From: Rubrivirga sp.
GTDB lineage: Bacteria > Bacteroidota > Rhodothermia > Rhodothermales > Rubricoccaceae
Reading direction: 5' to 3'
Length of the DNA: 11,912 nt
Assembly: GCA_012269805.1 (NCBI GenBank)
Contig: JAAXJP010000339.1
Coordinates: forward strand, 1-11,912
Shown: one piece after another, positions 1 through 11,912 of the stretch
Layout: every line of letters starts with the position of its first letter
Position numbering within the stretch: position 1 is the stretch's first letter
Made by a program: the position numbers and the translations under genes
The notes under the pieces: model-generated
Databases searched by the model: none
Told to the model about the DNA's origin: nothing
Seen by the model: the letters and a program-made list of their open reading frames with translations, nothing else

Positions 1-863
1 CCGGCAAGGACACCGTCGACGACGAGGTGCTCGACGACCTCGAGGAGGTCCTCGTGACGTCCGACGTCGGCGTCCAGACGACGATCGAGATCATCCGCCG
101 GATCGAGGCGCGCGTGGCCGAGGACAAGTACGTCTCGACCAAGGAGCTCCAGGGCCTCATGCGGGCCGAGATCGCCGAGCTCCTCCTCTCGAACGCCCCC
201 GAGCGCCCGGCCGACTTCGACGCGCCGCTCCCGAGCACGCCGCACGTCGTGATGGTCGTCGGCGTCAACGGCGTCGGCAAGACGACGTCGATCGGCAAGA
301 TCGCGCACCACTACAAGCAGGCCGGGAAGCGGGTGCTCCTCGGCGCTGGCGACACGTTCCGCGCGGCGGCGACCGAGCAGCTCGACCTGTGGGCCCAGCG
401 GGCCGGCGTCGAGATCATCAAGCAGTACCAGGGCGCCGACCCCGCCGCCGTCGCCTTCGACACGCTCGCCGCCGCCAAGTCGCGCGGCGCCGACGTGGTC
501 CTCATCGACACGGCCGGCCGGCTCCACAACCAGGTCGGGCTGATGGACGAGCTCGCGAAGGTCCGCCGCGTCATGGACCGCCAGGTGCCGGGGGCGCCCC
601 ACGAGGTGCTCCTGGTGCTGGACGCGAGCACGGGCCAGAACGCGATGCGCCAGGCCGAGGCCTTCACCCAGTCCGTCGACGTCACCGGCCTCGTGCTCAC
701 GAAGCTCGACGGGACGGCGAAGGGGGGCATCGTGATTGGCATTTCCAACGAGTTCCAAATCCCCGTTAAGTACATCGGCGTCGGCGAGGGGATCGAGGAC
801 CTCCAGGTCTTCGACCGCGCGGCCTTCGTGGCGGCCCTCTTCGGGGACGCCGCGGCGGCGTGA
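1..863 (+). CDS. ftsY: FtsY, signal recognition particle receptor GTPase (5' end missing)
   Basis: FtsY is the SRP receptor. It binds Ffh-ribosome complexes at the inner membrane, and the paired GTPases hand nascent membrane proteins to SecYEG. The reading frame is already open at base 3 and runs without a start to the TGA at 861-863, so about 286 C-terminal residues are visible. The acidic N-terminal A region and the true start lie outside the window. Visible parts are the end of the helical N domain (VDDEVLDDLEEVLVTSDVGV) and the whole G domain. G1 is GVNGVGKTT (bases 261-287), followed by DTFRAAA; G3 is DTAGR (507-521) and G4 is TKLDG (699-713). The closing stretch is GIGVGEGIEDLQVFD-like, as in FtsY. 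The DVGV and GVNGVGKTT motifs separate it from Ffh, which has a C-terminal M domain that is absent here. It is followed by a GC hairpin and a new promoter, so it is probably the last gene of its transcript. Family assignment is secure. Confidence 0.96.
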   Translation, partial: GKDTVDDEVLDDLEEVLVTSDVGVQTTIEIIRRIEARVAEDKYVSTKELQGLMRAEIAELLLSNAPERPADFDAPLPSTPHVVMVVGVNGVGKTTSIGKIAHHYKQAGKRVLLGAGDTFRAAATEQLDLWAQRAGVEIIKQYQGADPAAVAFDTLAAAKSRGADVVLIDTAGRLHNQVGLMDELAKVRRVMDRQVPGAPHEVLLVLDASTGQNAMRQAEAFTQSVDVTGLVLTKLDGTAKGGIVIGISNEFQIPVKYIGVGEGIEDLQVFDRAAFVAALFGDAAAA

Positions 864-886
864 CGGCGAACCCCGTGCGCTCGACG

Positions 887-909
887 CCGGCCCCCTCCGC
901 TGGGGCCGG
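887..909 (+). terminator. GC-rich hairpin after ftsY, possible terminator
   Basis: CCGGCCCC (887-894) pairs perfectly with GGGGCCGG (902-909) around a 7-nt loop, 24 nt after the ftsY stop. No T-run follows, so it is not a textbook intrinsic terminator. In GC-rich genomes such stems can still mark transcript ends or protect 3' ends. Terminator function is inferred from position. Confidence 0.4.
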
Positions 910-955
910 GCCGGCGACGGTTCGGCGCCCCCAGCCGACGGTTCGCGGAACGCGC

Positions 956-987
956 TTGTGAAAGCGCTCCCGCGCGCCCCATCTTTG
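956..987 (+). promoter_or_regulatory. putative Bacteroidetes-type promoter of the GWxTD/receptor operon
   Basis: CATCTTTG (980-987) matches the Bacteroidetes -7 consensus TAnnTTTG at 7 of 8 positions. A TTG (956-958), matching the core of the -33 element, lies 21 nt upstream, within the spacing known for these promoters. Transcription would begin near 991-995, about 45 nt before the chosen start codon at 1038. The spacing is the same as in the promoter proposed before the M23 peptidase gene. Called by eye; no transcript data. Confidence 0.45.
957..972. promoter_or_regulatory. LacI/cre-like palindromic operator candidate
   Basis: TGTGAAAGCGCTCCCG centres on the palindrome AGCGCT with a central CG pair, the hallmark of LacI/GalR-family operators. 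The 14-mer at 959-972 matches the Gram-positive cre consensus TGWAARCGYTWNCW at 12 of 14 positions. It lies between the -33 and -7 elements of the proposed promoter, where a bound repressor would block RNA polymerase. A near-identical 15-mer with one mismatch occurs at 10671-10685. Which regulator binds it is unknown; no LacI-family gene is in the window. Confidence 0.4.
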
Positions 988-1037
988 ACGATGGTACCAT
1001 GCCAGTCGCCCATCCTCTCCCCGCATCTGCCGAGCCT

Positions 1038-2402
1038 ATGCGCGCTCGCTACGCTTTCCGCTCCGCCGGCCGGAGCGCCCGGGCCGTTCTCCTGACCCTC
1101 GTCGCGGCGCTCGCCGTCGCGTTCCCGGCCCTCGCCCAGGCCGCCTACACGCCCGCCTTCGACGTCGAGGTCGTGACCCAACGGGGCGACGCCGAGGCCC
1201 AAGCCCGCCTCGACGTCTACACGGCGGTCCCGAACACGAGCCTCCGGTTCCTCGCCCGGGCGGGCGGCTTCGAGGCGCGCTACGCCGTGACGGTCGGCGT
1301 CTACGCGCTCGACGAGGAGGGCGAGCAGCAGGGCCTCGTCGTGAGCCGGACGTTCGAGCGCGAGGTGGCCGTCGCCGACTACGAGATGACGCAGGACGGC
1401 GAGCGGGAGGACCGGGCCGTCCAGTCGCTCGCCGTCACGCCGGGCCGGTACCTCGTCGAGGTCGCCGTCGAGGACGGCGCCAGTGGCCGCTCGCTGAGTC
1501 GCGAGGTCGCCCACGTGGTCCGAGACGTGAGCGCCGGGGGCGTCGCCATCTCCGACCCGCTCCTCCTCAGCGCCTACGACCCCGCCGCCGGGACGGCCAC
1601 GCCGATCGTCGGCGCGACGGTCTCGACCGAGGACGAGGCCTTCTGGGTTTCCTACGAGCTCTACGCGCCCGAGGCCACCGACCTCGAGGTCACCTACGTC
1701 GTGACCGAGCAGAGCCGCGTCCGCGAGCGGCCGACGTTCGGCGCGCTCCTCGGGCTCGCGCCCCGCCAGCAGGCCGACCTCGGCACGCCGGTCGCCGTGA
1801 CGGAGGCCCTCGAGCTCGAGGGCGGCCGGACGCCCGCCGCCTTCCGCATCGAGACCGAGGCGCTCCAGGTCGGCGATTACACCCTCACGGTCCGCCTCGC
1901 GACGCCGGAGGGCGAGGAGCTCGCCTCTGTCGACAAGCGGTTCGCCGTCCGCTGGATGGGCCTCGACAGCCAGATCGCCGACCTCGACCAGGCCATCGCC
2001 CAGCTCCGTTACGTGGCCAAGGACGACGAGCTCCGCGCCATCCGGAACGCGCCGACGCCGGAGGAGCAGCGCCGCCTGTTCCTGCACTTCTGGGACCGCC
2101 GCGACCCCACGCCCGGCACCGACCGGAACGAGCGGATGGAGGAGTACTACTTCCGCGTGGCCTACGCCAACGAGCGCTACTCCCGCTTCCACGACCGGGG
2201 CTGGAACACCGACCGGGGCGAGATCTTCATCCGCTTCGGCGAGCCCGACTACGTCGAGGACCACCCGTTCAACTACGGGACCCAGCCGTACCAGATTTGG
2301 AACTACTACGGCCAGGGCCGCCGCTTCATCTTCGTCGACGAGACGGGGATGGGCGACTTCCGCCTCCTCATCCCACACTGGGACGACCGCACGCGGATGT
2401 GA
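1038..2402 (+). CDS. secreted GWxTD-domain protein
   Basis: Exported protein of 454 residues with a C-terminal GWxTD domain, a family typical of Bacteroidetes-related bacteria and without an assigned biochemical function. The ATG at 1038 is preferred over the in-frame ATG at 999. It places a clean signal peptide at the N-terminus: Arg-rich start, hydrophobic core VLLTLVAALAVAF, and probable cleavage after ALAQA near residue 35. Residues about 40-310 look like repeated beta-sandwich segments. The signature region follows: HFWDRRDPTPGTDRNE (350-365), then RGWNTD containing G388-W-N-T-D392, GEIFIRFGEPD, and QIWNYY (419-424). It is the first gene of the operon, and its ATGTGA end overlaps the GTG start of the receptor gene by 4 nt, so translation of the two is probably coupled. 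It may act in the periplasm or cell envelope with that receptor; this is inference from context. No Shine-Dalgarno sequence is visible. Confidence 0.88.
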   Translation: MRARYAFRSAGRSARAVLLTLVAALAVAFPALAQAAYTPAFDVEVVTQRGDAEAQARLDVYTAVPNTSLRFLARAGGFEARYAVTVGVYALDEEGEQQGLVVSRTFEREVAVADYEMTQDGEREDRAVQSLAVTPGRYLVEVAVEDGASGRSLSREVAHVVRDVSAGGVAISDPLLLSAYDPAAGTATPIVGATVSTEDEAFWVSYELYAPEATDLEVTYVVTEQSRVRERPTFGALLGLAPRQQADLGTPVAVTEALELEGGRTPAAFRIETEALQVGDYTLTVRLATPEGEELASVDKRFAVRWMGLDSQIADLDQAIAQLRYVAKDDELRAIRNAPTPEEQRRLFLHFWDRRDPTPGTDRNERMEEYYFRVAYANERYSRFHDRGWNTDRGEIFIRFGEPDYVEDHPFNYGTQPYQIWNYYGQGRRFIFVDETGMGDFRLLIPHWDDRTRM

Positions 2403-4663
2403 CCTCACATCCCGGACGCCGCTTCCTCTGGGCCGCGCTGGCGACGCTCGTCGTCGGCGCGGCTCCCGTTTGGGGGCAGTCGGTAAGGGGGTTCGTGACG
2501 GCCTCGGGGCGGGGGCCGCTGGCCGGGGCCAACGTGGCGCTTCAGCGCGTCGAGGCGGGCGCAGCCGTCGGGGCGCTCCGCGGGGCCGTGGCGGACGCGC
2601 AGGGGTTCTACGAGGTCGGGGCGCTCGAACCCGGCCGCTACGCCGCCCGCGCGACCTACGTCGGCTACGCGGCGGCGCTCGACACGCTGGTCCTCACGGA
2701 TGGCCCGGCGACGTGGAGCCCGGAGCTCGCGGCGGCGGACGGCCTCGGCGAGGTCGTCGTCCAGGCCGACGGCGGCGCGGCCGACGTCCAGGCCGGCCTC
2801 CAAAAGATCCGCCCGGCCGACCTTGGCCGGATCCCGTCGCCCGACGTCGCGGGCGACCTCGCGGTCTACCTCCAGTCGCTGCCCGGCGTCGTGACCGTCG
2901 GCGACCGCGGCGGCGGCCTCTTCGTCCGCGGCGGGACGCCGGCCCAGAACCTCGTCCTCGTCGACGGCGCGCCGGTCTTCCAGCCGTTCCACGCCATCGG
3001 CTTTTTCTCGGCGTTCCCCGAGGACCTCGTCGGCGCGGCGGACTTTTACGCGGGCGGCTACGGGCAGCGGTACACGGGGCGCGTGTCGTCCGTGCTCGAC
3101 GTGACGCTCCGGGAGGGGAGCACGGAAAAACTCCAGGCGGCCGGGACCGTCGGCCCGTTCGTCGTCTCGGCGCAGGGGGAGGGGCCGATCGAGAGGGGCA
3201 CGTCGTCGTGGATCGCCTCGGCGCGGACGTCGGTGGTCGAGCCGCTCGCCGAGGCGGTCGGGGTCGACGTGCCGCTCCGGTTCATGGACGGCCTCGTCAA
3301 GGTGTCGACGGCGTCGGACGCGTCGCGGTGCTCGGCCCACGCGCTCGGGACCTACGACCGCGGCCGCCTCGACAGCGAGTCAGAGGACGCCTTCGAGTGG
3401 CGAAACCTCGTCGTCGGCGGCCGGTGCGTCTCGGCGCCGAGGGGGCTCGACGGGCGGATCGACATGGCGGCGAGCGTGAGCCACCTCGACAGCGGGATCG
3501 GCCCGGCGACGGCGTTCCTCCGCTCCGACGGCCGCGAACGGGCCTCGCGCCTCACCGAGGGCCGCTTTTCCGCCGACCTTACGCGCTCGCTCGGCTGGGC
3601 CCGCCTCCAGTTCGGGGCCCGGGGCTCCCTCGTCATCACGCGCTACCGGTTCGGCGACGACGCGACCTCGCGCGAGGACGGCGACTTCCTGCTCGGCGGC
3701 GCCGCCCACGTCGGCCTCGAGGTCCCGCTCGGCCCCCTCACGGTCTCGCCGGGCGTGGCGCTCGTGATGAAGCCGTACTCGGAGTCGTTCGGGCTCGAGC
3801 CGCGGGTCCGGGCGTCGCTGCTGCCGGCCGGGCCGCGCGGTCCGGAGCTCTCGGCCGCCGCCGGCCTCTATCGCCAGTCGCTCGTGGGGCTGACCGACGA
3901 GCGTGACGCGGCCTCCCCGTTCATCGCCTGGACCGGCCCGCCCGCCGGGTTTGACGAGCAGACGGCGCTCCACGCGCTCGCCGGCGCGACGGTGCCGCTC
4001 GCCCGTGGGCTCCGCGTCGGCGTCGAGGGGTACGCGCGGCGGATCGACGGGCTGCCGATCCCGATCTGGAGCGCGCGGACGCAGTTCACGGTCCTCCCGG
4101 TCGAGGCCCGCTCGACGTCGGTCGGCGCCGACGCGCGTGTCGAGTGGCAGCGCGGGCCGGCCTACACCTACGTCTCGTACGCCTACGGCGTGACCGAGTA
4201 CCAAGCGGTCGACGGCCCCTTCCTCGTCCGCGGCGGCCAGCCGTACGACCGCTACAACCCGGCGCACGACCGGCGCCACCAGCTCCAGATGGCCCTTCAA
4301 CTCGACCTCGGGCGGGTCGAGGCCGGGGCCCGCTGGCAGTACGGATCGGGCCTCCCGTACACGCGGCCGTACGGGTTCGACGTGGTCGTCCCGCCGTTCG
4401 GGCTGCCCGAGGTCACGACCGCCCCCGGGTACCCGCGCGTCGTGTTCGAGCGGCCGTTCAACGGGCGGCTCCCGTCCTACCACCGGCTCGACCTCTCGGC
4501 CGGCACCGACGTCCGCCTCGGGGAGGCGCGGCTCGACCTCCGGGCCGGCGCGATCAACACGTACAACCGCGACAACGTGTTTTACTACGACGTCTTCCGC
4601 GGCCGCCGCGTCAACCAGCTCCCCCTCGTCCCCTACGTGTCGGCGAGGCTCCGGACGCCGTGA
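2399..4663 (+). CDS. TonB-dependent outer-membrane receptor with carboxypeptidase-regulatory-like domain
   Basis: Predicted outer-membrane transporter of 754 residues that would import a ligand using TonB/ExbBD energy; the ligand is unknown. The frame is open further upstream, but GTG at 2399 is chosen. It overlaps the previous stop (GTGA) and gives a signal peptide (GRRFLWAALATLVVGAAPVWG, cut before QS near residue 27). Residues about 28-105 form a CarboxypepD_reg-like beta-sandwich (VRGFVTASGRGPLAGANVAL through GFYEVGALEPGRYAARATYVG). A short EVVVQA strand follows. The plug is at about 145-240, with YLQSLPGVV, LFVRGGTPAQNLVLVDGAPV and YAGGYGQRYTGRVSSVLDV. The remaining roughly 500 residues are barrel. 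Two cysteines (C311, C343) lie in neighbouring barrel segments and could form a disulfide. The C-terminus (YVSARLRTP) lacks the usual terminal aromatic residue of the beta-signal. No TonB box was identified. Three lipoprotein genes follow with 4-nt overlaps. Confidence 0.92.
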   Translation: MTSHPGRRFLWAALATLVVGAAPVWGQSVRGFVTASGRGPLAGANVALQRVEAGAAVGALRGAVADAQGFYEVGALEPGRYAARATYVGYAAALDTLVLTDGPATWSPELAAADGLGEVVVQADGGAADVQAGLQKIRPADLGRIPSPDVAGDLAVYLQSLPGVVTVGDRGGGLFVRGGTPAQNLVLVDGAPVFQPFHAIGFFSAFPEDLVGAADFYAGGYGQRYTGRVSSVLDVTLREGSTEKLQAAGTVGPFVVSAQGEGPIERGTSSWIASARTSVVEPLAEAVGVDVPLRFMDGLVKVSTASDASRCSAHALGTYDRGRLDSESEDAFEWRNLVVGGRCVSAPRGLDGRIDMAASVSHLDSGIGPATAFLRSDGRERASRLTEGRFSADLTRSLGWARLQFGARGSLVITRYRFGDDATSREDGDFLLGGAAHVGLEVPLGPLTVSPGVALVMKPYSESFGLEPRVRASLLPAGPRGPELSAAAGLYRQSLVGLTDERDAASPFIAWTGPPAGFDEQTALHALAGATVPLARGLRVGVEGYARRIDGLPIPIWSARTQFTVLPVEARSTSVGADARVEWQRGPAYTYVSYAYGVTEYQAVDGPFLVRGGQPYDRYNPAHDRRHQLQMALQLDLGRVEAGARWQYGSGLPYTRPYGFDVVVPPFGLPEVTTAPGYPRVVFERPFNGRLPSYHRLDLSAGTDVRLGEARLDLRAGAINTYNRDNVFYYDVFRGRRVNQLPLVPYVSARLRTP

Positions 4664-5475
4664 CCCGCCTCGGTCTCGTCGTGAGCGGGGTCGCACTCGC
4701 CGCCTGCGCGCTCGCCGGGTGCGAGGTCCCCTTCGACCCGCGCGTGCCGTCGGACGACGGGGTCTCCCTCAGCGGGTACCTCGACGCCACGGCCGATACG
4801 CAGTGGGTCCGGGTCGAGCTGTTCGGCGCCGTCGCCGGGACGAGTGCCCGGCCGCTTCCGGTGGCCGTGACGCTGGTGGACGAGGGCGGGGCCGAGGCGG
4901 TTCTGGACCAGCGCGTACGGCCGACGGTCGCCGGCCCGGCCCACCTGTTCTGGACGACGGCCGACGTCGAGCCCGGCCGGACCTACCGGCTCGACGTCGA
5001 GGCCGAGGTGGGCCCGGCCACGACGGCCGTCGTCACGCCGGACACGACGGACTACTCCGTGACGGTGGATGCGGGACCCCAGACGTGCCCAGCCGTGGTC
5101 ACCGTGCGGGGCGACGTCGACCTCGCGGACGTCCAGGTCGTGTTCGAGGTCGTGCGTCGGGGCGAGGTCGAGACGGTGAGGCTGAGTCGGGCCCGGTACG
5201 TCGAGGTGGACGCCGACGGGACGGACCACGTCTCGCTCTACCTCACCGACGACGTGCAGGAGGCGACCCGGCCAGGAGACGTGGTGTTGAGCGCCCGGCT
5301 CCGGGTGTCGGTAGCGACCGACTGGCCCGTCGGGTCGGGGGTGACGCTAGAGGACGTCCTCGTCGAGCCGGAACTCGGCGCGGTCGACCGGATCGCGGGC
5401 GGGGTCGGGTTCGTGGGAGGGGTCGTCTCTGAATGGTTCGCCCACGGCGGCCCCGTCCCCTGCGTCCGCCCATGA
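4660..5475 (+). CDS. DUF4249-like lipoprotein, copy A
   Basis: Predicted lipoprotein of 271 residues, first of three tandem paralogues after the receptor. GTG at 4660 overlaps the receptor stop by 4 nt (GTGA). It gives a short signal peptide with lipobox LAGC, so C21 would be lipidated. C16 in LAAC is a second, less likely acceptor. The mature start is CEVP. An N-terminal Ig-like segment carries SLSGYLDATADTQWVRVE (36-53) and PAHLFWT (93-99). A second part starts near the CP at C143-P144. The C-terminal end has GGVGFVGG (247-254) and a Cys at 268, three residues before the end. The layout resembles DUF4249, a Bacteroidetes lipoprotein family usually found beside TonB-dependent receptors. The DUF assignment is from remembered family pattern and is moderate; lipoprotein and paralogy calls are strong. 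It may bind ligand at the cell surface for the receptor. Confidence 0.75.
   Translation: MTRLGLVVSGVALAACALAGCEVPFDPRVPSDDGVSLSGYLDATADTQWVRVELFGAVAGTSARPLPVAVTLVDEGGAEAVLDQRVRPTVAGPAHLFWTTADVEPGRTYRLDVEAEVGPATTAVVTPDTTDYSVTVDAGPQTCPAVVTVRGDVDLADVQVVFEVVRRGEVETVRLSRARYVEVDADGTDHVSLYLTDDVQEATRPGDVVLSARLRVSVATDWPVGSGVTLEDVLVEPELGAVDRIAGGVGFVGGVVSEWFAHGGPVPCVRP
4791..4811 (+). repeat. 21-bp direct repeat, copy in lipoprotein A
   Basis: This stretch encodes ADTQWVR and is identical to 5588-5608 in copy B. The same place in copy C (6427-6447) differs at one base. A second identical block of 24 bp, encoding the PAHLFWTT segment, is at 4936-4959 in A and 5736-5759 in B. These blocks are dispersed within three diverged paralogues. 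Confidence 0.85.
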
Positions 5476-6317
5476 GCCGGCTCGCGCTCCTGCTCGCCCT
5501 CACGGCCCTCGCCGCGTGCGAGGTCCCGCTCGTCCCTATCGAGCCGTCGGACCGCGTGTTCTCCCTGAGCGGCTACCTCGACACGTCGGCCGATACGCAG
5601 TGGGTCCGCGTCGAGCCGCTGGCCCGGACCGCTGGGGGGGACCCGGGCCCGATCGACGCGGTCGTGACGCTGACCGACCTCGCGACCGGGAGAGGGGAGG
5701 CACTCGCGCAGCGGGTCCGCCCGTTCTCCACCGGGCCGGCCCACCTGTTCTGGACGACGACGGACGTCGCGCCCGGCCGGACGTACCGCCTCGAAGCCCG
5801 CCGCTCGGACGGCGCGGCCGCGACGACCGACATCCCACTTCCCGCCGTCGGCTCGTTCTCGGTCACGGTCGTGACGGGTCCGAAAGTGTGCCCGACGGTC
5901 GTGGAGGTGACTGGCGCCGAGCGCGTCGTCGACGTCCAGTCCCGCTACGTCGTAATGGAAGAGGGGCAGCCCGTCGAGTACCGGTTCTCCCACGCCGACA
6001 CGTTCGCCCGCCAGTCCGACGGGTCCGTCGCCGCGTCCGTGTACTACGCCGACGACGCCCGCGAGATGGGCCTCGACCCGATCGCGGACCCGGGGTCCCA
6101 GGGCGTCCTCGCCTCCGACGTCGTCGCGGCCATCGCGGCGGACGCGTGGCCCGACCCCACGGGGCTGACCCTGGAAGAGGTCCTCCAGATCGAGGGGTTC
6201 GGTGTCGAGGGCGGGGTCGGGTTCGTCGGCGGGGCGGTGACGGAGCGGCGGCCGTTCACGCCGGGCGTCCTGGAGCAGGGGTTCGGCAACGTGCTCCCCT
6301 GCGCCCTCGACCCGTGA
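5472..6317 (+). CDS. DUF4249-like lipoprotein, copy B
   Basis: Predicted lipoprotein of 281 residues, second paralogue. ATG at 5472 overlaps the previous stop by 4 nt (ATGA). An in-frame upstream extension from 5433 would put an Arg/Pro-rich tail before the signal peptide, so it is rejected. The signal peptide MSRLALLLALTALAAC places the lipidated Cys at residue 16, and the mature start is CEVP as in copy A. Shared motifs are FSLSGYLDTSADTQWVRVE (30-48), GPAHLFWT (88-95), PGRTYRLE, the CP at C140, and GGVGFVGG (247-254). C277 lies four residues from the C-terminus. Only three cysteines occur in the whole protein. Two stretches over 20 bp are identical in DNA to copy A (see repeat entries). 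Copies B and C resemble each other more than A in the FSLSGYLD region and in total length. No specific substrate can be named. Confidence 0.75.
   Translation: MSRLALLLALTALAACEVPLVPIEPSDRVFSLSGYLDTSADTQWVRVEPLARTAGGDPGPIDAVVTLTDLATGRGEALAQRVRPFSTGPAHLFWTTTDVAPGRTYRLEARRSDGAAATTDIPLPAVGSFSVTVVTGPKVCPTVVEVTGAERVVDVQSRYVVMEEGQPVEYRFSHADTFARQSDGSVAASVYYADDAREMGLDPIADPGSQGVLASDVVAAIAADAWPDPTGLTLEEVLQIEGFGVEGGVGFVGGAVTERRPFTPGVLEQGFGNVLPCALDP
5588..5608 (+). repeat. 21-bp direct repeat, copy in lipoprotein B
   Basis: Identical to 4791-4811. The two copies lie at equivalent codons of paralogous genes about 0.8 kb apart, so the repeat follows from tandem gene duplication. It could also serve as a substrate for recombination between copies. 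Confidence 0.85.
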
Positions 6318-7156
6318 CGCGCGCCGGGCTCCTGCTCGCGGTGGCGCTGGTGGCGTGCGAGGCGCCGCTCGACCCCATCGCCCCGTCCGACCGCGTGTTC
6401 TCCCTCAGCGGGTACCTCGACGCCTCGGCCGACACGCAGTGGGTCCGCGTCGAGCCGTTCGGGACGGTCGCCGACCCGGTGCCGGGTGCCATCGACGCCG
6501 CGGTCACCCTCGTGACGCCCGACGGGGTGCGCGTGCCGATGACGCAGACCGTCCGCACGTTTGAGACCGGGCCGGCTCACCTGTTCTGGACGGTCGAGCC
6601 GCTCGTGGCGGGCGTGACGTACCGCGTCGAGGCCGAGCGGAGCGACGGCGCTCTGGCGCGCGCGACGGTCCGCATCCCCGAAGCCGAGTCCGTGGCGCTC
6701 ACGCTGATCGACGGGCTCGTCAACTGCCCGACGCTCGTGATCGTGGAGGGCGCGGAGCGGCTGGCGGACGTCCGCGCGCGGTACGAGTTGTTGGGGCCGG
6801 ACCGGCAGGGGGAGGTCTACGAGTTCTCGAAGCGGCCGTCGCTCGCTCAGACCGCCAGCGGCGCATACACGGCCCAGGTCTTCTTCGGCGAGGACGCGAC
6901 CGAGATGGAGATCAACCCGTTCCCCGGCGTCGAGCCGATCGCACCCGAGGTCGTCGTGGCCGTGGCGACCGACGACTGGCCCGAGGTGGACGGGCTCACG
7001 CTCGAAGAGGCGCTCGCGTCGGCCGACTTCGACCGCGTGGAGGGGGGCGTCGGGTTCGTCGGCGGGATCGTGACGACGACGGCCGACTTTGTGCCGGGCT
7101 ACGGGTTCATCCCGTTCGAGCTCGACCCGCGGCCGCCGGAGCCCTGCTTCCCGTAG
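6314..7156 (+). CDS. DUF4249-like lipoprotein, copy C
   Basis: Predicted lipoprotein of 280 residues, third paralogue and last gene of the operon. GTG at 6314 overlaps the previous stop by 4 nt (GTGA). The signal peptide ends in lipobox LVAC with C15 lipidated, and the mature start is CEAP. Motifs shared with A and B are FSLSGYLDASADTQWVRVE (29-47), GPAHLFWT (86-93), the CP at C138, VEGAERLADVRARYEL, and EGGVGFVGG (243-251). C278 is three residues from the end. Its C-terminal tail is longer and Pro-rich (DPRPPEPCFP), yet the terminal Cys is kept. The stop at 7154-7156 is followed by 48 nt before fmt, with a possible new promoter. Role as in the other copies: possible surface partner of the TonB-dependent receptor, inferred from context only. 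Confidence 0.75.
   Translation: MTRAGLLLAVALVACEAPLDPIAPSDRVFSLSGYLDASADTQWVRVEPFGTVADPVPGAIDAAVTLVTPDGVRVPMTQTVRTFETGPAHLFWTVEPLVAGVTYRVEAERSDGALARATVRIPEAESVALTLIDGLVNCPTLVIVEGAERLADVRARYELLGPDRQGEVYEFSKRPSLAQTASGAYTAQVFFGEDATEMEINPFPGVEPIAPEVVVAVATDDWPEVDGLTLEEALASADFDRVEGGVGFVGGIVTTTADFVPGYGFIPFELDPRPPEPCFP
6427..6447 (+). repeat. 21-bp direct repeat, copy in lipoprotein C
   Basis: Same codons as the repeats at 4791 and 5588, with one silent difference (GAC for GAT). Confidence 0.8.
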
Positions 7157-7174
7157 GCAGCGGGCAGGCGGCGG

Positions 7175-7182
7175 TAGCTTGG
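7175..7182 (+). promoter_or_regulatory. possible -7 promoter element for fmt
   Basis: TAGCTTGG matches TAnnTTTG at 7 of 8 positions and lies 22 nt before the GTG start of fmt. No TTG is seen at the -33 spacing, so the call is weak. It would allow fmt to be transcribed independently of the lipoprotein operon. Confidence 0.3.
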
Positions 7183-7204
7183 GGCGCCCCTCCCAACGCC
7201 TCTC

Positions 7205-8143
7205 GTGGACGCCCCCCGCATCGTGTTCATGGGCACGCCGGACTTTGCCGTGCCCTCCCTCGACGCCCTCGTCGAAGCCGGCCTCGCGCCGGTCGCCGTC
7301 GTCACCGTGCCGGACAAGCCGGCGGGGCGGGGCCAGAAGGTCCGCGCGTCGGCGGTAAAGCGGGCAGCCGAGCGGCACGGGCTGCCCGTCCTCCAGCCCG
7401 CGTCGGTCAAGGACCCAGCGTTCGCGGAGCAGATCGCGGCGCTCGACGCCGACGTCCTCGCGGTCGTCGCCTTCCGGATCCTGCCGCCGGTCGTGTTCGA
7501 GGCCGCCCGCCTCGGCGCGTTCAACCTCCACGGCTCGCTCCTGCCCGCCTACCGCGGCGCGGCGCCCATCCAGCGCGCGATCATGGACGGCGTCGAGGAG
7601 ACCGGCGTGACGACGTTCTTTCTCCAGCGGACCGTCGACACCGGCAACGTGATCCTCCGACGCCGGATCGCCGTCGGGCCCGACGACACGGCCGGTGACG
7701 TCCACGACCGCCTCGCCGAGATCGGGGCGGAAGCCGTCGTCGAGACGGTCCGCCAGATCGCCGCCGGGACCGCCGAGGCCGAGCCGCAGGACGACGCGCT
7801 GGCGAGCCCCGCCCCCAAGATCTTCCGCGAGGACGCCGAGATCGACTGGTCCCGCCCGGCCCGCAAGGTCCACGACCACGTCCGCGCGCTCTCCCCGTAC
7901 CCCGGCGCGTGGACGGCGTGGGAGGGGGAGACGGTGAAGGTTCTCCGCACGCGGTTCGAGGAGGCCCGCCTCGACGGCCCGCCGGGCCGGGTCACGGTCG
8001 ACGAGGGCCGGATGCTGGTCGCCTGCGGCGCGGACGCCGTCGAGGTGCTGGAGGTCCAACGTGAGGGGAAGCGCCGCATGGACGCCGTCGCGTTCCTGAA
8101 CGGGGCGGAGGTCGACGGCGCGGTGCTCGGCGAGGCGCCGTAG
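7205..8143 (+). CDS. fmt: methionyl-tRNA formyltransferase
   Basis: Transfers a formyl group from 10-formyltetrahydrofolate to Met-tRNAfMet in the cytoplasm, preparing the initiator tRNA. The protein is 312 residues, the normal family length. The GTG at 7205 begins the typical start (APRIVFMGTPDFAVPSLDAL). The N-terminal Rossmann-type catalytic domain contains KPAGRGQK, AFNLHGSLLPAYRGAAPIQR (105-124) and TVDTGNVI. The catalytic triad N107, H109 and D145 corresponds to E. coli N106, H108 and D144. The C-terminal tRNA-binding OB-like domain begins near 208 (KIFREDAEIDW) and ends with the familiar QREGKRRMDAVAFLNG. No def (peptide deformylase) gene, its frequent neighbour, is adjacent. No Shine-Dalgarno sequence; the leader just before the start is pyrimidine-rich. 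Assignment is secure. Confidence 0.97.
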   Translation: MDAPRIVFMGTPDFAVPSLDALVEAGLAPVAVVTVPDKPAGRGQKVRASAVKRAAERHGLPVLQPASVKDPAFAEQIAALDADVLAVVAFRILPPVVFEAARLGAFNLHGSLLPAYRGAAPIQRAIMDGVEETGVTTFFLQRTVDTGNVILRRRIAVGPDDTAGDVHDRLAEIGAEAVVETVRQIAAGTAEAEPQDDALASPAPKIFREDAEIDWSRPARKVHDHVRALSPYPGAWTAWEGETVKVLRTRFEEARLDGPPGRVTVDEGRMLVACGADAVEVLEVQREGKRRMDAVAFLNGAEVDGAVLGEAP

Positions 8144-8246
8144 GCCCCCACCCCCGTCCCCACTGGGCACTGCGCTCGGAGGGCGGCGTATCCTCCGCAC
8201 GACCGGCCGACGCCCGCCCGTTCCGCCGCCCCCCGACGCCCCCGGC

Positions 8247-9317
<1,071 letters not shown>

Positions 9318-9322
9318 GCGCC

Positions 9323-9369
9323 ACGAGGCGAGAGGGAAGGGGCCCGTGGGACCCCGCCCTTCGCCTCGT
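9323..9369. terminator. long hairpin between moxR and hprK, probable terminator
   Basis: ACGAGGCGA (9323-9331) pairs perfectly with TCGCCTCGT (9361-9369). Inside this, AGGG (9333-9336) pairs with CCCT (9357-9360) and GGGG (9339-9342) with CCCC (9352-9355), around a 9-nt loop. That makes 17 base pairs with two small interruptions. It begins 6 nt after the moxR stop and ends 21 nt before the hprK start. There is no T-run, so it may instead be an mRNA-stabilising or attenuating structure. Confidence 0.55.
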
Positions 9370-9381
9370 ACCTCATCCCCC

Positions 9382-9393
9382 ATGCCCCTGTGA
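9382..9393 (+). other. three-codon micro-ORF overlapping the hprK start
   Basis: ATG-CCC-CTG-TGA encodes Met-Pro-Leu and stops at the TGA inside the GTGA that contains the hprK start codon (GTG at 9390). This reproduces the 4-nt coupling overlap seen four times in the operon upstream. It may be chance, but it could feed terminating ribosomes onto the hprK start. Confidence 0.2.
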
Positions 9394-10406
9394 GAAAGCC
9401 CCAGCCGTTTCGGCGCGAGAAGATCCTCCTCCCGGCGCTGCTGACGCGGCTCCGCGACCGCGTCGGCGTCGAGATCGAGGCGTGCGGGGGCGGCGAGGCC
9501 GAGGGCCGAGCCGTGACGGTCCGCCACGTCCACCGGCCGGGCCTCGTGCTGGCCGGCTACACCGAGCACTTCGAGCACCGGCGGATCCAGATCCTCGGCA
9601 ACACCGAGTGCCGCTACCTCGGCTGGCTCGAGCCCGCGGCGGCCCGGGAGGCGTTCGACCGGCTCCTCTCGTTCGACCCCCCGTGCGTGATCCTCACGGC
9701 GGGCAACGAGCTGGAGGTCGGCTTCGAGGCGCTCGCCGCCGACCGCGGCGTCCCGCTTTTCCGGACGCCCGTCGCGACGGTCCCGTTCATGGGCCTCCTC
9801 CGCGACGTCCTCGACGACCACTTCGCGGAGCAGCTCACGGTCCACGGCTCGCTCGTCGACGTGTACGGGATCGGGCTCCTGCTCACGGGGCCGGCCGGGA
9901 TCGGGAAGTCCGAGATGGCCCTCGACCTCGTCGAGCGCGGCCACCGGCTCGTGGCCGACGACGTGGTCATGGCGACGCGGACCGGCTCGGGCGTCATCAT
10001 GGGGGCGGGGACCGACCTCGCCGAGCACTTTATGGAGATCCGAGGGCTCGGCATCATCGACGTCCGGTCGATGTTCGGCGTCCGCGCGATCCGGTACCAG
10101 AAGCGGATCGAGGTCGTCGTCCAGATCCACCCGTGGGACGAGGACGAGGAGTACACCCGGATCGACATGGTGACCGAGATGGACTCGATCCTCGGCGTCG
10201 ACCTCCCGCTCGTCAAGCTGCCCATCACGCCGGGCAAGAACGTGACGGTCATCTGCGAGGTGATTGCCATGAACCACCTCCTCCAACACTACGGATACGA
10301 CCCGGCCGAGGCGTTCTCGGCCAAGCTCCGCCAGCGGATCGAGCAGAAGTCGGACACGCCAGGGGCCGGCCGCGGCATCGACTGGTTCGAGCACGACTTC
10401 GAGTAG
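9390..10406 (+). CDS. hprK: HPr kinase/phosphorylase
   Basis: Bifunctional enzyme that phosphorylates the carrier HPr (or a homologue) on a regulatory Ser and reverses the reaction; cytoplasmic hexamer in studied members. The protein has 338 residues, close to the family norm. The N-terminal domain (about 1-145) includes LAGYTEHFEHRRIQILGNTE and FMGLLRDVLDDHFA. The kinase domain contains TVHGSLVDVYGIG with H152, Walker A GPAGIGKS (167-174), GHRLVADD (184-191), and the HprK signature MEIRGLGIIDVRSMFGVR (215-232). It closes with LPITPGKNV (277-285) and the NHLLQHYGYDPAEAF tail typical of Bacteroidetes/Chlorobi-type members. Start GTG at 9390; no Shine-Dalgarno sequence. No ptsH or other PTS gene is in the window. 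In Gram-negatives HprK usually belongs to regulatory rather than sugar-transporting systems; that role here is inferred. Confidence 0.95.
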   Translation: MRKPQPFRREKILLPALLTRLRDRVGVEIEACGGGEAEGRAVTVRHVHRPGLVLAGYTEHFEHRRIQILGNTECRYLGWLEPAAAREAFDRLLSFDPPCVILTAGNELEVGFEALAADRGVPLFRTPVATVPFMGLLRDVLDDHFAEQLTVHGSLVDVYGIGLLLTGPAGIGKSEMALDLVERGHRLVADDVVMATRTGSGVIMGAGTDLAEHFMEIRGLGIIDVRSMFGVRAIRYQKRIEVVVQIHPWDEDEEYTRIDMVTEMDSILGVDLPLVKLPITPGKNVTVICEVIAMNHLLQHYGYDPAEAFSAKLRQRIEQKSDTPGAGRGIDWFEHDFE

Positions 10407-10436
10407 TGCGGACCTGGTCCCTCCCCAACCGTCAAC

Positions 10437-10451
10437 CCCCGCTCGGCGGGG
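10437..10451. terminator. GC hairpin after hprK, possible terminator
   Basis: CCCCGC (10437-10442) and GCGGGG (10446-10451) form a perfect 6-bp stem with a 3-nt loop, 30 nt after the hprK stop. G-rich sequence, not T-rich, follows. Termination is inferred from position. Confidence 0.4.
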
Positions 10452-10515
10452 CCGGGGGGCGGGGACGTTCGACCGGACGGCTGGGCGCTACCCTCCATTG
10501 CGGTCCGCCGCTATG

Positions 10516-10543
10516 GGCCTCCGAGGCGGCCCGCCTCGGGGCC
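10516..10543. other. strong inverted repeat in the hprK-M23 intergenic region
   Basis: CCGAGGCG (10521-10528) pairs with CGCCTCGG (10532-10539) around a 3-nt loop. GGCC (10516-10519) pairs with GGCC (10540-10543), leaving T10520 bulged. This gives 12 base pairs. It may be a second terminator stem or part of a structured leader. Confidence 0.4.
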
Positions 10544-10631
10544 GGCGGGGGCGAACTCCCGACCGGCCGGGGCACCTTTTGGAACGGAAACACTGGGTTT
10601 TGGGGAGATGGGGGAAAGCCGGGGGCCGAGG

Positions 10632-10663
10632 TTGCCGAAAGCCCGAAAGGGCGTCTATGTTTA
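10632..10663 (+). promoter_or_regulatory. putative promoter of the M23 peptidase gene
   Basis: TATGTTTA (10656-10663) matches the Bacteroidetes -7 consensus TAnnTTTG except at the last base. A TTG at 10632-10634 lies 21 nt upstream as the -33 core, the same spacing as in the promoter at 956-987. A GCCC-GAAA-GGGC hairpin (10641-10652) falls between the elements. Transcription would start near 10668-10671, giving a leader of about 180 nt. Confidence 0.5.
10641..10652 (+). other. GNRA-tetraloop hairpin beside promoter
   Basis: GCCC-GAAA-GGGC is a perfect 4-bp stem capped by a GAAA tetraloop. The following bases, GTCTATGTTT, are the most T-rich nearby. The element could therefore also end transcripts coming from hprK, sharing bases with the -7 element. 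Confidence 0.3.
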
Positions 10664-10670
10664 CCCCGCC

Positions 10671-10686
10671 TGTGAGAGCGCTCCCA
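10671..10686. promoter_or_regulatory. LacI/cre-like palindromic operator candidate, second copy
   Basis: TGTGAGAGCGCTCCCA differs from the site at 957-972 only at the fifth position and the last base. The 14-mer from 10673 matches the cre consensus at 12 of 14 positions. It sits at or just after the inferred transcription start of the M23 gene, a usual place for a repressor operator. Confidence 0.4.
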
Positions 10687-10849
10687 CCACCGGCCGGGGT
10701 CCGACGCCCTGCCGAGCGCGAGCCCGGAGCTTCGGCCCGGTTGTTGCGGAAGGGGAGCGTGCGCACGGACCGCCCCCTCCTCCGTCCGGCCGCCGTCACC
10801 CCACTGTGGGGCCGCACCGGGGAGTCGCACCACCGCCTCCCTCTCCCGC

Positions 10850-11833
10850 ATGCCTGACAACCGCTACTTCTACTACGACCACGACGCGTGCACGTTCGTC
10901 GAGGTCGAGCCGAGCCGGAAGGGGCTCTGGCTGAAGGTCGGAGCGATCGCCTGCCTCTCGCTCGTGCTCAGCGCCGTCGGCGTCGGCGTCCTCTCGACGT
11001 TCCTGACCTCGCCGACCGAGATCGCGCAGGCCGAGGAAATCGACGCGCTCCGCGGCCAGCTGGCCTCGACGCACTCGCAGCTCACGTCGTTTTCCGAAGA
11101 GCTCGAGACCCTCGCCGAGACCGACCGAGAGATCTACCGGACGGTCCTCAACGCCGAGCCGATCACCGAGGACGAGTTCCAGCTCGGCGTCGGCGGCGCG
11201 GAGAACAGCCGGTTCACCCGGTTCTCGACGCCCACCGCCGAGCTCCTCACCGAGACGTCCGAGACGTTCGACCGCCTCGAGCGGCAGCTCGAGCTCCAGA
11301 GCCGGTCCTACGACGAGATCCGGAGCCTCGCCTCCGAGCGCGACGCCGTGCTCCGCCAGCAGCCGGCGATCCTACCGCTCAAGAACGCGCGCCTGACCTC
11401 GGGCTTCGGGATGCGCTACCACCCGATCCTCCGCGTCTCGCGGATGCACGCGGGCGTCGACTTCCCGACGCCCGTCGGCACGCCGCTCTACGCCGCCGGC
11501 GACGGCCGCGTCCGGTTCGTCGGCACGAAGGGCGGCTACGGGAACGTCATCGAGATCGAGCACCCGCTCGCGCGCAAGATCACGCGCTACGCCCACCTCT
11601 CGCGCGTCGCGGACGGCATCGCCGAGGGCACGCTCGTCCGCCGCGGCCAGACCGTCGCGTACAGCGGCAACACGGGCCTCTCGACGGCCCCGCACCTCCA
11701 CTACGAGGTCCGGATGATGAACGCCGAGGAGACCCCGCTGAACCCGGTCGCCACGTTCGTCCCGGACGTCACGCCGGCCCAGTACCGCGAGCTCGTCGAG
11801 GCGGCCCGCTCGCAGACGGTCTCGTTCGACTAA
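10850..11833 (+). CDS. membrane-anchored M23 (LytM-type) zinc metallopeptidase
   Basis: Predicted cell-wall peptidase or divisome/elongasome factor of 327 residues. An N-terminal cytoplasmic segment (PDNRYFYYDHDACTFVEVEP) resembles that of Bacteroidetes M23 proteins. One membrane span is at about 27-52, and a periplasmic coiled coil covers about 58-95 and 130-172. The M23 domain (about 178-302) begins LTSGFGMRYHPI. Zinc and catalytic residues are present: H200xxxD204 in RMHAGVDF, H249 in RYAHL, and H282-L-H284 in PHLHYEV. The full set argues for an active endopeptidase rather than a degenerate EnvC/NlpD-type activator. Family members cut peptide crosslinks in peptidoglycan; the substrate here is inferred. 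ATG at 10850 follows a pyrimidine-rich leader without a Shine-Dalgarno sequence. The gene stands alone with its own promoter. Confidence 0.94.
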   Translation: MPDNRYFYYDHDACTFVEVEPSRKGLWLKVGAIACLSLVLSAVGVGVLSTFLTSPTEIAQAEEIDALRGQLASTHSQLTSFSEELETLAETDREIYRTVLNAEPITEDEFQLGVGGAENSRFTRFSTPTAELLTETSETFDRLERQLELQSRSYDEIRSLASERDAVLRQQPAILPLKNARLTSGFGMRYHPILRVSRMHAGVDFPTPVGTPLYAAGDGRVRFVGTKGGYGNVIEIEHPLARKITRYAHLSRVADGIAEGTLVRRGQTVAYSGNTGLSTAPHLHYEVRMMNAEETPLNPVATFVPDVTPAQYRELVEAARSQTVSFD

Positions 11834-11846
11834 CGAGCCCGCTCCG

Positions 11847-11858
11847 CCCCTCCCTGGA

Positions 11859-11862
<4 letters not shown>
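11847..11862 (+). terminator. hairpin after the M23 peptidase gene, possible terminator
   Basis: CCCCTC (11847-11852) pairs with GAGGGG (11857-11862) around loop CCTG, 13 nt after the stop. The right arm merges into the poly-G tail, so its true extent cannot be judged. Confidence 0.4.

Positions 11863-11912
<50 letters not shown>

Follow-up and report, generated by a model that had tools for sequence, protein, structure and literature searches.

A TonB-dependent receptor with three tandem DUF4249-like lipoproteins in Rubrivirga: candidate alternative lids on one transporter

Introduction

TonB-dependent transporters capped by lipoprotein lids are one of the main means of uptake in Bacteroidota. 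Here, we analysed an 11,912-nucleotide stretch from Rubrivirga sp. (assembly GCA_012269805.1, contig JAAXJP010000339.1, positions 1 to 11,912; hereafter the window). In it, a TonB-dependent receptor gene is followed by genes for three paralogous lipoproteins, LpA, LpB and LpC, that resemble the family DUF4249. The closest described system is BT2172-BT2173 of Bacteroides thetaiotaomicron. According to the portion of the source available to us, this TonB-dependent transporter and DUF4249 protein share a conserved operon and have similar mutant phenotypes (PMC11003636). Two further lipoproteins are described, in excerpts of the respective papers, as lids on regular-size receptors. These are BtuG (PMC10404256) and XusB, the lid of XusA (PMC13142918). 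Our literature searches, outside which lay subscription literature and preprints, turned up only the single BT2172/BT2173 pair for DUF4249, and nothing on tandem-duplicated lipoproteins of TonB-dependent transporters in Bacteroidetes. Hence, a receptor with one DUF4249 protein is already known; the window has three paralogous copies behind one receptor.

The locus likely encodes a receptor-lipoprotein uptake unit. Tentatively, and as a whole a little short of an even call, we favour the reading that tandemly multiplied DUF4249-type lipoproteins are alternative lids on one receptor, each combining a constant docking domain with a variable ligand domain.

Results

Three related lipoproteins accompany one regular-size receptor

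The sequence-only reading, made from the letters of the window without database searches, had placed one receptor and three paralogous lipoproteins in overlapping genes at 2399..7156. The coordinates are exact and each junction is 4 bp. The overlapping chain is real but begins one gene earlier than noted, at the gene for a GWxTD-domain protein (Table 1). From there, 4-bp overlaps link GWxTD to the receptor, the receptor to LpA, LpA to LpB and LpB to LpC.

In a joint alignment, LpA shares 49% identity with LpB and 42% with LpC; pairwise identities among the three are 45-53%. Each has a lipobox-like cysteine. The lipid-anchor cysteine, C15, is invariant across a 116-sequence alignment, as is typical of a surface lipoprotein. 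An AlphaFold2 model of LpC (predicted local distance difference test, pLDDT, 92.0; predicted template modelling score, pTM, 0.83) predicts two mainly beta domains, comprising residues 24-122 and 123-258. Among the fold matches listed for this model, only generic immunoglobulin-like folds appear.

The lipoproteins had been labelled DUF4249-like. The family profile, PF14054, finds all three but each score (Table 1) is below the curated cut-off of 28.5 bits. Hence, we name them DUF4249-like only. DUF4249 was matched at E<=0.01 by 22 of 29 family members, and the LpC domain piece in this set was not among the 22. Twelve accepted DUF4249 members align to the family over the N-terminal domain only (profile-profile comparison, E 8.7e-5, probability 60). 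Two relatives from Rubrivirga marina carry the NCBI name 'DUF4249 family protein'. Searched by profile against solved sequences, the lipoprotein family had no hit, and the accepted DUF4249 members had two at chance level (E about 0.7). Beyond those hits, DUF4249, an uncharacterised lid candidate, has no solved-structure relative in these searches.

The receptor passes the Pfam cut-offs for CarboxypepD_reg (38.2 bits; cut-off 32.3) and Plug, PF07715 (26.2 bits; cut-off 23.9). Its model (pLDDT 88.2, pTM 0.89) has an N-terminal sandwich, a plug and a barrel. The predicted structure is thus a transmembrane beta-barrel closed by a plug, as in TonB-dependent receptors. Among solved structures, it best matches siderophore, colicin-receptor and B12 transporters, including the B12 transporter-lipoprotein complexes of B. 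thetaiotaomicron. The receptor matched no SusC model of NCBIfam, and gave only two weak non-SusC hits up to E 1. The SusC-type chains that were matched, at 997-1041 amino acids (aa), are longer than the receptor, and the match spans only its N-terminal part. We conclude that the receptor is of the regular-size type and resembles BtuB-BtuG and XusAB more than SusCD.

SusD-like lids had been offered as a parallel for the lipoproteins. This parallel is not supported. The LpC model is mostly beta-sandwich, and the SusD Pfam families gave no match to any of the three lipoproteins up to E 10. The fold matches listed for LpC also lack SusD, which by itself does not speak against a SusD fold. Furthermore, the receptor is a regular-size barrel nearest to siderophore and B12 transporters.

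Copy number behind the receptor varies

We surveyed the best 80 of 262 receptor relatives, taken from named public genomes and chosen regardless of lipoproteins, and counted neighbours on the same strand. Some of the 80 loci share a genome. Exactly one lipoprotein was downstream in 58 loci, eight of which carry another upstream. Two were downstream in five (L101, L106, L127, L137 and L156), of which L101 has its second copy in a broken frame and L106 and L127 share one genome. Seven were downstream in one locus (L098). A lipoprotein was present upstream only in seven loci, and none was detected in nine. Hence, DUF4249-type genes adjoin such receptors, on the same strand and directly downstream or upstream, in 71 of 80 loci. 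This agrees with the association assumed in the sequence-only reading and with the published pair. The converse, that the lipoproteins are consistently apart from the receptor, is not so, though exceptions exist. Two or more copies behind one receptor, a survey of which had been proposed, are confined among the 80 to the five loci with two and the one with seven. For 74 unique single pairs, receptor and lipoprotein distance matrices covary (Mantel r 0.858, reached in none of 500 permutations), with shared ancestry still contained in that value.

The seven copies of L098, in a metagenome-assembled genome of Rhodothermia, are in tandem at 10265-16733. There is one receptor in the stretch, all seven matches of the genome are there and, judged from open frames, five of the seven junctions are 4-bp overlaps. 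Further arrays were found by lipoprotein search; these show occurrence, not frequency. At a second locus, two genomes of the same genus, G003 and G001, have a receptor with four lipoproteins (L036, L037). The window's own genome has at least three copies at the same kind of locus (L174) before the contig ends. Lipoproteins of L036, L037 and L174 are approximately 550-590 aa, with a DUF4249-like N part and a long C-terminal part. Of four such proteins scanned, one had a lamin-tail domain above the cut-off, two below and one had none. A receptor with three lipoproteins occurs twice in G014 (L170 and L171), with one receptor in each case. Outside the class, G154 has one receptor with four lipoproteins and another with two, and G115 has a receptor with two.

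Other arrangements occur. In G041, two copies precede the receptor. Two copies in G016 have no receptor in the stretch, and none was detected with the two copies on contig C44 of G154. Among such arrays, L168, L169, L172 and L173 hold two or three copies with the receptor undetected, on the opposite strand, or preceded by the copies.

At five other arrays, a scan of 20 proteins from the neighbourhood gave no clear hint to a substrate. At L170, cytochrome c554/TPR, FG-GAP/ASPIC and TPR proteins are encoded upstream of the receptor and its three lipoproteins (L170:857-6718). Downstream, on the opposite strand, are xylose-isomerase-like and epimerase-like genes (L170:12775-15085). These neighbours are a possible substrate clue.

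These copy numbers bear on how the lipoproteins might be arranged. The first idea of the sequence-only reading was that all three sit on the receptor simultaneously, forming a four-protein surface machine. A fixed stoichiometry would suit the equal translational coupling in three species (the window's, G003 and G001), all of which retain three copies. Conversely, at 754 aa with the CPD-like domain counted, the receptor has the regular size, and it is the larger SusC that offers extra interfaces for more lipoproteins, as stated in the excerpt of PMC10404256. In addition, one, two, three, four or seven copies occur behind the same kind of receptor. Regular receptor size and copy numbers of one to seven make a simultaneous complex less likely, and we consider it rather improbable. 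The second idea, alternative lids, is preferred because arrays reach seven copies per receptor and because, in Rhodothermota arrays, the proteins are held alike in one half and varied in the other.

Array copies in Rhodothermota keep one domain alike and vary in the next

We compared identities pairwise for residues 24-122 of LpC (N) and residues 123-212 (M). For N identity >=0.6, with repeated records removed, N exceeded M by a mean of 0.29 in array pairs (n=25, 11 arrays) versus 0.06 in pairs of single-lipoprotein loci (n=43; Mann-Whitney p 1.8e-8, pairs not independent). For N identity >=0.8, M was 0.27-0.67 in eight array pairs (six arrays) and 0.80-0.96 in 13 single pairs. Similarly, at matched M identity, N domains were more alike in arrays in each of five bins tabulated. 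Mean N was greater than mean M in 16 of 16 arrays counted, though these are not 16 independent events. Where a locus has two receptors, each with its own lipoprotein, the N domains are approximately 31% identical (10 pairs, one locus counted twice). On these alignments, lipoproteins of Rhodothermota relatives combine a constant with a variable domain.

Two pairs of copies indicate how the N domains could be kept alike. In copies 1 and 2 of L037, nucleotide identity is 0.97-1.00 over domain residues 10-109, then 0.53 at the domain edge. This near-identical stretch of roughly 100 codons is a recombination tract. In copies 5 and 6 of L098, amino-acid identity is 1.00 at residues 48-87 and third-position identity is 0.40-0.70. 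Hence, third positions have diverged despite identical amino acids, which points to selection rather than recent copying. These two copies diverge in the middle, and their C-terminal part is nearly identical, with 93-100% DNA identity over residues 209-268.

Several observations weigh against alternative lids with a constant docking domain. First, the window copies (mean N 0.56, mean M 0.31-0.32) are too diverged to reveal the pattern alone; two of the three pairs have N <0.6. At N 0.5-0.6, the second domain does not differ, with identities of 0.33 in array pairs and 0.35 in single pairs. Second, beyond the lack of independence between pairs, single-locus pairs are mostly orthologues, in which both domains may persist for other reasons. 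Third, the pattern is weak or reversed outside Rhodothermota. Thus, N exceeds M in seven of nine within-array pairs of A6, and pairs from G154 contig C19 and from G115 have M greater than N. Fourth, in array pairs with N >=0.5, median synonymous divergence (dS) is lower in N than in the second domain. Part of the N similarity is hence gene conversion, for which no docking role is needed. Finally, no receptor was detected in the 18 kb of L168, a three-copy array of G053, and a second three-copy array of that genome has a nearby receptor on the opposite strand only (L169).

Gene conversion in arrays also fits a different account, as does the faster divergence of lipoproteins than of the receptor. 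Duplicates could be kept for dosage, or diversified as exposed targets of phages or predators, with the ligand staying the same. Dosage leaves the 26-36% second-domain identity between the window copies unexplained, and we think this account quite unlikely. Alternative lids remain our preferred reading.

The unit is found in one branch of the genus

In G003 and G001, the receptor and three lipoproteins occupy the same place, and each of their junctions again overlaps by 4 bp. The methionyl-tRNA formyltransferase gene, fmt, comes next. Since order and overlaps are kept in both, the unit is not an assembly product of a fragmented genome. Hence, two of three same-genus genomes keep the unit. The third, G002, lacks a lipoprotein match; there, Fmt comes directly after GWxTD. 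We fetched 30 GWxTD loci. FtsY adjoins GWxTD on its 5' side in all 30 and Fmt is directly 3' in 16, none of which has the unit at that place. The receptor is 3' in three: the window, G003 and G001. Of the remaining loci, two end no more than approximately 100 bases from the gene and nine have neither Fmt nor the receptor in the 0.8-1.5 kb covered. The GWxTD gene is therefore the start of the overlap chain yet a member of an older FtsY-GWxTD-Fmt neighbourhood. Judged from these gene orders, the four-gene unit would most simply be a lineage-specific insertion that one branch of the genus received in a conserved neighbourhood, because GWxTD and Fmt are direct neighbours in G002 and in 15 or more other genomes. 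Alternatively, the unit may have been lost elsewhere.

The overlap with GWxTD, retained in G003 and G001, raises the question of whether the unit is functionally tied to that gene (and to FtsY and Fmt), serving envelope biogenesis rather than uptake. We found no paper on GWxTD in a literature search. All 60 genomes searched have a GWxTD match, whether or not they carry the unit; the preponderance of loci with Fmt directly after GWxTD, 16 against three with the receptor, and the different genes that adjoin other array units likewise make such a tie very improbable. We return to uptake by alternative lids.

Taken together, the window, G003 and G001 have nine lipoproteins, and these fall into a single clade (support 1.0). 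This grouping suggests that the triplication predates the split of the three species, each of which would have retained all three copies. The receptors of the window and G003 are 92% identical (nonsynonymous divergence, dN, 0.043). The corresponding values are 67% for LpA (dN 0.25), 80% for LpB (0.13) and 84% for LpC (0.096). For comparison, in 12 pairs where receptors are 90-98.5% identical, single lipoproteins are 82-98% identical (domain alignment). Relative to that range, LpA is well below, LpB just below and LpC inside. Between the window and G001, the receptor is 79% identical and lipoproteins are 44-54% identical, about the distance between copies of one genome.

LpC is the copy that evolves most slowly and the only one that groups with its G001 counterpart at high support (0.997), which would fit a reading with one true lid. 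In that case, the other two lipoproteins would be satellite surface capture proteins that pass ligand to the lid-receptor pair. BtuH beside BtuB-BtuG, for which such a role is proposed in the excerpt of PMC10404256, is a precedent. Satellites need not keep the N domain of a lid, yet N domains are the part kept in Rhodothermota arrays. We regard satellites as unlikely, and favour three alternative lids.

Features of the window

The window is the start of contig C327 (21,143 bases), from a source genome of 751 contigs that is 81% complete. Features are listed in Table 1. Three genes 3' of Fmt are presumably those for MoxR, HprK and an M23 peptidase. Outside the receptor-lipoprotein unit, positions 11859-11912 are a run of G with one C interrupting, which in a fragmented genome looks like a sequencing or assembly artefact. 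Hence, the join to the remaining contig is to be distrusted.

Table 1. Genes, LpC domains and gene overlaps in the window.
Feature	Position	Strand	Details
FtsY	3-863		cut by window start
GWxTD-domain gene	999..2402	+	TIGR04514 109.8 bits, cut-off 28
TonB-dependent receptor	2399..4663	+	754 aa, GTG start; signal peptide, carboxypeptidase-regulatory-like N domain, plug, barrel
LpA, DUF4249-like lipoprotein	4660..5475	+	271 aa, GTG; PF14054 E 8e-4, 19.5 bits
LpB, DUF4249-like lipoprotein	5472..6317	+	281 aa, ATG; PF14054 E 8.1e-4, 19.5 bits
LpC, DUF4249-like lipoprotein	6314..7156	+	280 aa, GTG; PF14054 E 0.015, 15.3 bits
LpC N-terminal beta-sandwich domain (predicted)	6383..6679	+	residues 24-122; model secondary structure, paralogue comparison
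LpC second domain (predicted)	6680..7087	+	residues 123-258; model, paralogue comparison; 123-212 most divergent part between array copies
Overlap, GWxTD stop and receptor start	2399..2402	+	4 bp
Overlap, receptor stop and LpA start	4660..4663	+	4 bp
Overlap, LpA stop and LpB start	5472..5475	+	4 bp
Overlap, LpB stop and LpC start	6314..6317	+	4 bp
Fmt (methionyl-tRNA formyltransferase)	7205..8143	+	PF00551 and PF02911; far side of probable insertion

Discussion

Our favoured reading suggests the following mechanism. One translationally coupled message would yield LpA, LpB and LpC, all of which would be surface-anchored. The copies would dock singly, via the shared N-terminal beta-sandwich, on one regular-size receptor. 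With its divergent second domain, each copy may capture a ligand of its own; these ligands would be chemically related, or variants of a single one. The ligand would then be handed over to the receptor, which would import it with TonB energy. A broader version, possible though doubtful, extends to arrays in general. Two to seven exchangeable, co-transcribed lids would serve each receptor. Selection, together with gene conversion that can stop at the domain boundary, would keep the N domain uniform, while the ligand-facing domain would be free to diversify. A cell could thereby broaden the range of one transporter and leave the transporter itself unaltered.

If the lipoproteins are lids, natural arrays of one to seven on one receptor would offer a ready way to tell whether the part of a lid lies in docking, in specificity or in both. 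Chimeras could be cut where the kept part meets the varied one.

Of the known systems, SusC-SusD is alike in that a lipoprotein adjoins a TonB-dependent receptor. Conversely, the window has no SusD Pfam or SusC NCBIfam match, and the receptor is shorter than SusC-type chains of 997-1041 aa. BtuB-BtuG(-BtuH) differs in that its accessory lipoproteins are not described as tandem lid copies in the excerpt consulted (PMC10404256); BtuG is also not among the 50 fold matches listed for LpC in either list. XusA-XusB, as described in part of PMC13142918, is similar in having a 22-strand receptor, an N-terminal carboxypeptidase-like domain on XusA and a lipoprotein lid. However, XusB belongs to DUF4374 and is a beta-propeller (PMC13142918, same portion), whereas LpC is modelled as two beta-sandwiches. 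In BT2172-BT2173, as in the window, the receptor adjoins a DUF4249-type gene. The available portion of that source describes one DUF4249 gene; the window has three, each below the Pfam cut-off for DUF4249, behind a single receptor.
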